The notes below the pieces were generated by a model, which was given only the letters and a program-made list of their open reading frames with translations, searched no databases and was not told the DNA's origin. A stretch of DNA of 64,000 nucleotides from Geitlerinema sp. PCC 7407 (lineage in GTDB: Bacteria > Cyanobacteriota > Cyanobacteriia > PCC-7407). Below are positions 24,769 through 27,493 of this stretch, in pieces. The DNA is taken from positions 1,290,501 to 1,354,500 of the forward strand of contig NC_019703.1 of the NCBI RefSeq assembly GCF_000317045.1, given 5' to 3'. Position 1 is the first letter of the stretch; the number at the start of each line of letters is the position of its first letter. A program made the translations under genes and the position numbers.

Positions 24769-26019
24769 CTAGCGTCGCTGAGAGAACTTGCCGCTGCGCT
24801 TTTTGCGGAGCCAGCCCAGGCTAGCGCCGCTGACCGTCACCAGGGCCAGCAAGGCGCCCGGCTCGGGAACCGCCTTGGCCCGACGCAGCGGCGCCCCATC
24901 GCCCCAAGCGGCAGCCACCATCAGCTCGGAATCCCAGCCGCTGAGGGGGATTGCTAGATCGACGTCTTCCGGAAAGAAACCAGGCCCTGGGGAAATTTTC
25001 GGCAAATTCCAGCCGATAACGTCAAATGCCCGCAGGTCTTCTTCACTAATGGGCAAAATCTCGCCTTGGCGGAGGTCGGGGTCCATCATGCCCAGGGTCT
25101 GTCCCTGCTTCCAGTGGCTTGCGGACTGGCCGTCGCCGTGGATCGCCCCCGTCGCAAAGTCGACGATCGCCGTTGTTCCCCCGTCGATGGAAAAATACTT
25201 GCGGCTCTCGCCAGCGGTCCAGTCCGGTATCCCGACGGAGCGGCTCGCGTCGGAGTAGCGAAACAGGTCCAGGGGAGAGACAAAGGCCATTTGGTCGTCG
25301 CGGAAAAAGTAGCGATCGCCCTGCATCTCAAGGGGGCTGTTGGTGTCGAGGACGTCCACGCCGCTGTTGAAGCCGAGAATGTGGCCAATCTCGTGAGCCG
25401 CCGCCCCGATAAAGTCAAATGTCCCTGCAGCAATGCCATCGCTGCGATCGAAATCCCACTGAAAGTCGCGGTTGAACCGGATCAAGCCGTCGCTCAAGCT
25501 GCTGGTGGGCAGACCCAGGGCCTTGGCGTTGGCGCTGGTGAGCCGAAGATTCGCGTTATTGGCGTCGCCGTCGCTGTCGCGGTAGGGAGTTGGGCTGCCG
25601 ACGCCGCTGGGGCTGTTCTCGGTGTAGTTGATCCACAGATCAACGCTGTCTCCCCCTGGCAAAAAACTAGTGGCGATCGCGTCGTCCTGGGAGCTGACGT
25701 CTTGGAGCAGGGCGCTGCGAACGGCGCTGTAGCGGTAGAGCTGCTCAGTGGACTGGGCCCGCCCCAAAATATCTGATTCCAGGGACAAAAAGCTCACTTC
25801 TAGGTTGACCACTACGTCATCGGTCACCACGGAAGACCACAGATCCCCAGCGGCCCGAAAACCCGCGATCGCGCTTTCGGGTGTTCCCGCCGCCGCGCTG
25901 AAGTTGAAAGTCAGCGCCTGGGCTCTGGGGATCGGGCCTGCCAGGTTGGCTGCCGCTGCTAGAGCCAGCGGGATCAACGAGCGTCTCGACTGCTTGGGAA
26001 ACAGCGTGTGCAATTTCAT
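24769..26019 (-). CDS. PEP-CTERM secreted zinc metalloprotease (NF038122-like)
   Basis: A 416-residue exported protein. The N-terminus has a signal peptide ending near AQALTFNF. The zinc motif HEIGHILGF (H209, E210, H213) is intact and followed by NSGVD, and the C-terminus has VPEP (~384), a hydrophobic stretch and KKR, a PEP-CTERM sorting signal read by an exosortase. The PYRDSDGDANNANLRLTSAN stretch and the WDFDRSDGI stretch are shared with the neighbouring paralogue. The substrate is unknown; it probably acts at the cell surface or in exopolysaccharide. The start is ATG 26019. Confidence 0.87.
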   Translation of the reverse strand: MKLHTLFPKQSRRSLIPLALAAAANLAGPIPRAQALTFNFSAAAGTPESAIAGFRAAGDLWSSVVTDDVVVNLEVSFLSLESDILGRAQSTEQLYRYSAVRSALLQDVSSQDDAIATSFLPGGDSVDLWINYTENSPSGVGSPTPYRDSDGDANNANLRLTSANAKALGLPTSSLSDGLIRFNRDFQWDFDRSDGIAAGTFDFIGAAAHEIGHILGFNSGVDVLDTNSPLEMQGDRYFFRDDQMAFVSPLDLFRYSDASRSVGIPDWTAGESRKYFSIDGGTTAIVDFATGAIHGDGQSASHWKQGQTLGMMDPDLRQGEILPISEEDLRAFDVIGWNLPKISPGPGFFPEDVDLAIPLSGWDSELMVAAAWGDGAPLRRAKAVPEPGALLALVTVSGASLGWLRKKRSGKFSQRR

Positions 26020-26347
26020 ACTGCCTTTAACGCGCTGTGCGTCAACAAAAACTACGCAAAACCAACTAGAACACCCTGCCTGCTTGTAAGAAAATTTTTT
26101 CTATAAGAAGTCAAATTTAAGCAATTTCCCTGTTTGCTTAGAGGGAATTGCCTCAGTTTTGATCTTTTGTTCCGCGAAGTCGTGGGTTTTTAGCAGAATT
26201 CACGGAGTCTTTATGAAAAATCAATGACCTTTATAAAGCCTTGTCGAATCTTGTCAGGTCGTTGTGAAGTTGCCATCACGGCGATCGCCCACAGCCAAGC
26301 CACCCGCCCATGCGGCATCAAGCCAATGTTGGTCAAGGGTAAAAAAG
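26020..26347. other. AT-rich intergenic region between the two metalloprotease genes
   Basis: About 330 bases, much richer in A and T than the genes. It contains a hairpin at 26121-26151 (GCAATTTCCCT pairing with AGGGAATTGC) that may end transcription of the upstream paralogue or sit in the leader of the downstream one. No coding frame or RNA gene is seen. Confidence 0.5.
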
Positions 26348-27493
26348 CTACAGGCTGCGATCGCTGCGCCCCCTGAGCCAGCTTCGCGCCCCCAAGCTCC
26401 AGACGGCGATCGCCAGGAGTCCAGCCCACGCCGTCGGTTCGGGCACTCGCGCAGGCGGTTGTTTGGGGGTCCACCCGATCACGTCTAGGGCCATGACATC
26501 CGTGGCCCGATCAACCCGCAGGGCTTGGCCGGGCAGCACCGACGGCTGCATCAGGCCCGAGGGCGATCGCTCCTTCCAGTGGCTGGCCTGCCGCCCGTCG
26601 CCGTAGCGCACTCCGGTCGAAAACTCCGCGATCGCCGTTTCGCCCCCATCAATGGAGAAATACTTGCTCGAAGAACTAGCCGTCCAGTCGATGACCCCGA
26701 CGCCATGCTGGACGCTTTCCTCGGAGAAGCGAAATAAATCAAGCGCCGTCACATAGGTAAAAGCGCTGTCCGGAAAGTAGTAATTCTGGGTGCCCACGGC
26801 CAAGGGGCTGTTGAAATCTAGAACATCAACACCGCTCATGAAGCCCAGGGTGCTGCCGATCGCATGGCTGACGATGCCCACAAAGTCGAGAGTCCCGCTG
26901 TTAATCCCATCCGAAGCGTCAAAATCCCACGGAAAAAGGCTGCTCAACTGCAAAGTCCCATCGCGATCGCCCCCCTGAGGATTTCGCAGTCCCAGGGCTT
27001 TTGCGTTGGCGTGAGTCAGCCGAATGCTCTGATTGTTGGCATCGCCGTCGCTGTCCAGATACGCGGTCGAACTGCCCATGCCGTGGGGATTATTGATTGT
27101 CCGGTTAATCAGTAAATCTACAGAGGGGCCACCCTGGAGGTGGGCGATCGCCGTCAAATCCGCTGTCGTGGTTGCTTTGGCAAAAAGCGCCGTCCGCACC
27201 TGCTCATAGCTGTACAAAGCACTGCCGGACACCGTAAGGCTGGGAACGGGCCGACTCAGAGGGCCGAACTGAACGTCCAGGTTGACCACCACATCATCAG
27301 CGAGCCACGACGACCAGACGGCTCCCGCAGCCTCGACTCCCTCCACAACCGGCTGAGGGACGGGAGCATCAAACCGGAAATTGAAAGTAGCTGCTTCGGC
27401 AGGACTTGCTGCACTCAACAGGGATGCCACGCCGCCGACAAGCTGCACGAGAGAGAAGCGATAACGGACCAGGAGGGCGCTAAAAGTCTCCAT
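26348..27493 (-). CDS. PEP-CTERM metalloprotease paralogue with degenerate active site
   Basis: A 381-residue paralogue of the protein encoded just downstream. Shared stretches include YLDSDGDANNQSIRLTHANA, WDFDASDGINSGTLDFVG and LGFMSGVDVLDFNSPL. The zinc motif reads H210-A-I-G-S214 in place of HEIGH: the catalytic glutamate and second histidine are lost, so it should not be an active protease. Signal peptide (~1-34) and PEP-CTERM tail (VPEPTAWAGLL then SLGARSWLRGR) are intact, and the frame has no stops, so selection seems to have kept it as a non-catalytic protein. Confidence 0.85.
   Translation of the reverse strand: METFSALLVRYRFSLVQLVGGVASLLSAASPAEAATFNFRFDAPVPQPVVEGVEAAGAVWSSWLADDVVVNLDVQFGPLSRPVPSLTVSGSALYSYEQVRTALFAKATTTADLTAIAHLQGGPSVDLLINRTINNPHGMGSSTAYLDSDGDANNQSIRLTHANAKALGLRNPQGGDRDGTLQLSSLFPWDFDASDGINSGTLDFVGIVSHAIGSTLGFMSGVDVLDFNSPLAVGTQNYYFPDSAFTYVTALDLFRFSEESVQHGVGVIDWTASSSSKYFSIDGGETAIAEFSTGVRYGDGRQASHWKERSPSGLMQPSVLPGQALRVDRATDVMALDVIGWTPKQPPARVPEPTAWAGLLAIAVWSLGARSWLRGRSDRSL

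Follow-up and report, generated by a model that had tools for sequence, protein, structure and literature searches.

We know of no role for most substrates of the PEP-CTERM/exosortase system. A filamentous cyanobacterium has been reported to require cyanoexosortase B for both motility and the formation of biofilms (PMC12188702), and ZepA, a PEP-CTERM exoprotein of Anabaena, acts by zinc binding (PMC10957091). Pseudo-metallopeptidases are likewise a known kind of protein, represented by inactive ADAMs, alpha-MPP, FtsHi, and AEBP1/CPXM, with the reviewed cases being mostly eukaryotic (PMC11266112). In the literature that we searched, we found neither an exosortase substrate nor an NF038122 protein among the described pseudo-metallopeptidases, no paper joining PEP-CTERM with a pseudoenzyme, and no solved structure of the NF038122 family or paper naming it.

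The window studied here, which is the whole 64,000-nucleotide stretch of DNA analyzed, contains two adjacent genes of this family. Their features are as follows.

26348..27493, minus strand: inactive NF038122-family PEP-CTERM protein (candidate pseudoprotease), 381 aa; NF038122 252.6 bits, E 6.8e-75; ORF intact
24769..26019, minus strand: active NF038122-family PEP-CTERM metalloprotease, 416 aa, HEIGH intact; NF038122 288.4 bits, E 8.3e-86; TIGR02595 18.7 bits, over the cut-off
26020..26347, no strand: spacer between the inactive and active genes; no convincing promoter or terminator
26852..26866, minus strand: altered HExxH of the inactive copy, codons of H210-A211-I212-G213-S214, CAT GCG ATC GGC AGC
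25381..25395, minus strand: HEIGH catalytic motif of the active copy (H209-E210-I-G-H213), CAC GAG ATT GGC CAC
26579..26581, minus strand: H305 (in ASHWK), putative third zinc ligand, retained in the inactive copy; invariant in 34 active relatives and lost in the inactive copies of genomes G027 and G003
26549..26551, minus strand: M315, putative Met-turn methionine, retained in the inactive copy; G[IVLM]M is conserved in the NF038122 family

Both ORFs are complete and on the same strand, with the active one lying 328 bp downstream of the inactive one, and their products are 48% identical over 349 aa. Both proteins score far above the curated NF038122 (metallo_LGF) cut-off of 80 bits, with nearly the whole model covered. 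Each has a signal-peptide-like N terminus (judged by eye from the translations, not with a predictor) and a visible C-terminal VPEP followed by a hydrophobic stretch and a basic end; the TIGR02595 tail score of the inactive copy is 15.5 bits, just under the cut-off of 16. In the spacer, promoter and terminator site counts were no higher than in shuffles. The single-contig 4.68-Mb host genome (58% GC) has one exosortase gene (PF09721 at G000:C1:3865306-3866070, E 6.4e-58), and no third NF038122 member was found in it in addition to the pair in the window.

Members of the NF038122 family have an HExxHxxGF motif, a conserved HW some 80 to 110 residues on, and then a G[IVL]M turn. We interpret the His of HW as the third ligand for zinc (H305 in the inactive copy) and G[IVL]M as the Met-turn (M315), which would make the layout metzincin-like, with a long insertion. 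A long insertion before the third ligand is also found in leishmanolysin. By alignment, the active copy has the complete metzincin set (putative ligands H209 and H213 with E210, then HW and GMM), whereas the inactive copy lacks the Glu and the second His of that set. Weak Pfam M10 matches, all below the curated cut-offs, were obtained for 10 of 13 NF038122 members tested; karilysin in the PDB was a weak match to the family (E 0.013), and one member matched M8 (E 0.18). AlphaFold models built from a shallow alignment had a mean pLDDT of about 52 and were poor beyond the motif, so that the case for fold retention rests on sequence. The top Foldseek matches of these poor models were matrix metalloproteinases, with nonsignificant E values of 0.04 and 0.26.

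The inactive copy reads HAIGSTLGF where its partner reads HEIGHILGF and thus departs from HExxHxxGF; as judged from its sequence, the product of 26348-27493 is an NF038122 homologue and not an active member of the family. The first-pass annotation had described the altered motif H210-A-I-G-S214 as a loss of the catalytic Glu and the second zinc His, and comparison of the codons with the HEIGH of the partner confirms this. None of 34 active relatives varies at the two lost residues, E211 (E211A) and H214 (H214S). The earlier annotation did not mention that H305 and M315 have been kept. Getting from HExxH to the altered motif takes at least three base changes (one for E to A and two for H to S), and therefore the motif is not a one-base sequencing slip; sequencing error as its cause is ruled out by the spread of these changes across two codons. 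As a separate observation, the Ala-Ile-Gly codons of the altered motif (window positions 26855-26863) read GCGATCGGC, one base off the HIP1 octamer GCGATCGC, of which the window holds 152 copies, and the CGATCG core at this site was created by the E-to-A change.

To place the pair in its family, we surveyed the cyanobacterial class, the phylum, and several orders (genomes numbered up to G899), together with four contigs from other phyla. HExxHxxG was present in 126 of the 144 distinct domain-bearing ORFs compared, and most of the others were fragments or short segments. The PEP-CTERM-type clade comprised 34 active rows and three inactive ones, namely, the window copy and those of G027 (QGIAV) and G003 (QGLGV). 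Inactive NF038122 copies are thus rare but not unique. G027 and G003 belong to two genera of one other cyanobacterial order and were the only genomes of that order compared. Their inactive genes lie in different neighborhoods, without an active neighbor, and retain an intact frame, signal peptide, and PEP-CTERM tail. No active NF038122 copy was found in either genome (both are fragmented assemblies), each holding the inactive copy only; nor was an exosortase matched in the fragmented assembly of G003. These solo genes indicate that an inactive copy can persist without an active NF038122 partner. The two proteins (L005 in G027 and L007 in G003) also have common insertions that are absent from active relatives, and a cysteine pair within them (DGDCNN ... 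LCGL / SCAG) could possibly form a new disulfide.

Outside the PEP-CTERM-type clade, the survey recovered one degenerate gene (G178, L077) and one QEMAH in place of HExxH (G375, L061, at G375:C26:6500-8600, also recorded as L223). The sister of the latter in the same genome, L075, keeps HEIGH, and QEMAH, found in a clade that lacks the PEP-CTERM-type architecture, probably arose by a separate loss. Plasmid and viral collections yielded distant relatives only. An active NF038122 domain (HEFAH, lying in L130) was also observed inside a 5,613-aa open frame (L221, G493:C1:1458000-1476000) with apparent Calx-beta, cadherin-like, and RTX-type repeats. Five copies were frameshifted or interrupted by stops (L058, L078, L079, L080, and L081), and all five keep HExxH; judging from these sequences, decay in the NF038122 family looks to break the frame and not the motif.

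On balance, we hypothesize that the product of 26348-27493 on the minus strand is an exosortase-sorted pseudoprotease retained for binding, a reading that we consider reasonably probable. The signal peptide of the protein would direct its export, the host exosortase would process and sort it through the PEP-CTERM tail, and its domain would adopt a metzincin-like fold. Having lost the general base E211 and the zinc ligand H214, it would not hydrolyze peptides. It may instead have been retained for binding on the cell surface or within the extracellular matrix, with the former substrate groove or loops on the surface of the protein contacting a substrate, a matrix polymer, or a partner.

How the inactive copies arose is a distinct question, and one answer compatible with a binding pseudoprotease is a single ancient subfamily, in which the copies of the window, G027, and G003 descend from an ancestor already without E211 and H214 and the G027/G003 lineage then lost H210 and H305, with the Met-turn being lost as well in G003. 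We view such a common origin as a possibility to be taken seriously, though not as the expected outcome. In trees built with the active-site columns masked, the two window copies were not sisters in the first, smaller tree but were sisters in the larger ones (supports of 87/81 and 88/53), and this pairing in the best free trees speaks against an ancient inactive subfamily. With the three inactive rows forced together in the largest tree, however, the log-likelihood was 1.0 higher than that of the free tree (AU p 0.507), so that a single ancient subfamily and independent losses are both compatible with the data. The absence of E211 and H214 from all three copies, with the remaining losses nested, also fits a common origin, while the minimum number of state changes on the free tree is three, with the outgroup QEMAH counted, and residues diagnostic of the inactive rows are not in excess. 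The candidates for such residues, F41 and F227, were set aside, their number not exceeding that from chance pairings; LDFN and GVMQP occur in an active relative (L178) as well. We can therefore offer only tentatively the broader proposal of a conserved subfamily of exosortase-sorted pseudo-metalloproteases that had already become inactive when at least two cyanobacterial orders diverged and that may serve surface binding without an active partner.

The same three copies differ in what they have lost. The 34 active relatives span several orders and phyla, and 26 positions do not vary among them. In G027 and in G003, the losses are exactly H210, E211, H214, and H305, with the remaining 22 positions intact (hypergeometric p of 6.7e-5 each, the two values not being independent of one another), and smaller active sets (11 and 13 actives) gave a similar picture. 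Between G027 and G003, pS is 0.836 (saturated) and pN is 0.349, with no frame break. Since both already read QG[IL][AG]V, this divergence occurred within the inactive lineage, which is clearly under purifying selection. The window copy loses 3 of the 26 invariants, namely, E211, H214, and a conservative S109T (hypergeometric p 0.05); its frame, an intact 381-aa ORF with the remaining invariants kept, is as first annotated. Taken by codons, at least three base changes fall in its two catalytic codons versus one conservative change in 22 other invariant codons (p about 0.013). For the window copy alone, then, the clustering of changes in the active site reaches only modest significance (p 0.01 to 0.05). 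At 90%-conserved sites, it shows three noncatalytic losses, compared with zero to five in active members. On these sequence comparisons, the G027/G003 lineage has good support as a pseudoenzyme, and the window copy is likely to be one too.

An alternative is that the window copy is a degenerate duplicate that lost its activity very recently and is drifting, its intact frame reflecting mere youth. The copy retains two of its three putative zinc ligands, as would be the case after a young loss, along with the Met-turn; its tail falls slightly short of the PEP-CTERM score cut-off; the branch of the inactive copy is slightly longer than that of the active copy (0.82 versus 0.64); and the host is the sole genome of its order compared, with no close relative among the others. 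We nevertheless consider recent degeneration unlikely. The clustering of changes in the catalytic codons runs against it, as do relative-rate tests of the window copy versus its active sister with 16 outgroups, which gave no significant excess (23 to 37 changes specific to the inactive copy and 20 to 29 specific to the active one). The five broken copies elsewhere in the family, which lost their frames and kept HExxH, likewise argue against it and against ordinary decay of the inactive copies in general. Frameshift decay in relatives and a lone recent loss under relaxed selection were the grounds that the first-pass annotation had named for giving up the pseudoenzyme interpretation. No frameshift decay was seen among the inactive copies and no relaxed selection in the relative-rate tests, while a lone recent loss of the window copy, in an order with no other genome compared, keeps some probability. 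A dN/dS value for the window pair was set aside, with synonymous sites being near saturation.

The earlier suggestion of a pseudoenzyme that binds or regulates has fared unevenly: pseudoenzyme status stands, given the lost active-site residues, the other invariants kept, and the constraint on the inactive lineage of G027 and G003, but the role of inhibitor or decoy for the active partner is not supported. An inhibitor or decoy predicts recurrent active/inactive tandems, and this prediction fails, since in all 18 other NF038122 tandem arrays HExxH is intact wherever the motif of a copy is covered; the proposed survey of tandem neighbors thus returned no further active/inactive pair among identifiable copies. 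Five of these arrays are of the PEP-CTERM type (L013, L185, L186, L187, and L188). The last four, from several species of genus g262, are tandems of two or three active PEP-CTERM-type genes and would be a good system for estimating dN/dS of recent duplicates. A looser arrangement would have the inactive copy bound to the active copy or to the substrate of the latter, inhibiting, stabilizing, or guiding the active copy much as an inactive subunit does in a hetero-oligomer. This arrangement has in its favor the adjacency, common strand, identity, and sisterhood (88/53) of the two genes and the precedent of the inactive alpha and active beta subunits of mitochondrial processing peptidase (PMC11266112), but it is improbable given that the all-HExxH arrays point to another cause for the tandem layout, that G027 and G003 hold inactive copies only, and that nothing about the 328-bp gap points to tight co-translation. 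Together, the failed tandem prediction and the solo inactive genes favor a binding role at the surface or in the matrix.

A lineage that has kept every invariant except the catalytic set suggests that this fold is useful apart from proteolysis. The occurrence of an inactive/active pair in a single-contig genome and of solo inactive copies elsewhere makes such a use testable by simple gene removal. Further, the locus carries a warning for annotation, as matches to NF038122 are named metalloproteases even where catalysis is impossible.

Compared with known systems, the NF038122 family resembles the metzincins (M10 matrixins and karilysin, and M8 leishmanolysin for the gap to the third His) in its HExxHxxGF, distal His, and G[IVL]M turn, but its third ligand is off the HExxHxxGxxH spacing. 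Within the family, the inactive window copy differs by its HExxH, from which the catalytic Glu and the second His are missing. ZepA offers a functional analogy, with no kinship by descent implied, as an exported cyanobacterial protein with a signal peptide and a PEP-CTERM tail that binds zinc rather than catalysing (PMC10957091). The reviewed pseudo-metallopeptidases belong to other families than the window copy; they are alike in that the catalytic base and/or zinc ligands have been lost from a domain otherwise kept, and they are often extracellular, binding matrix or partners (PMC11266112).
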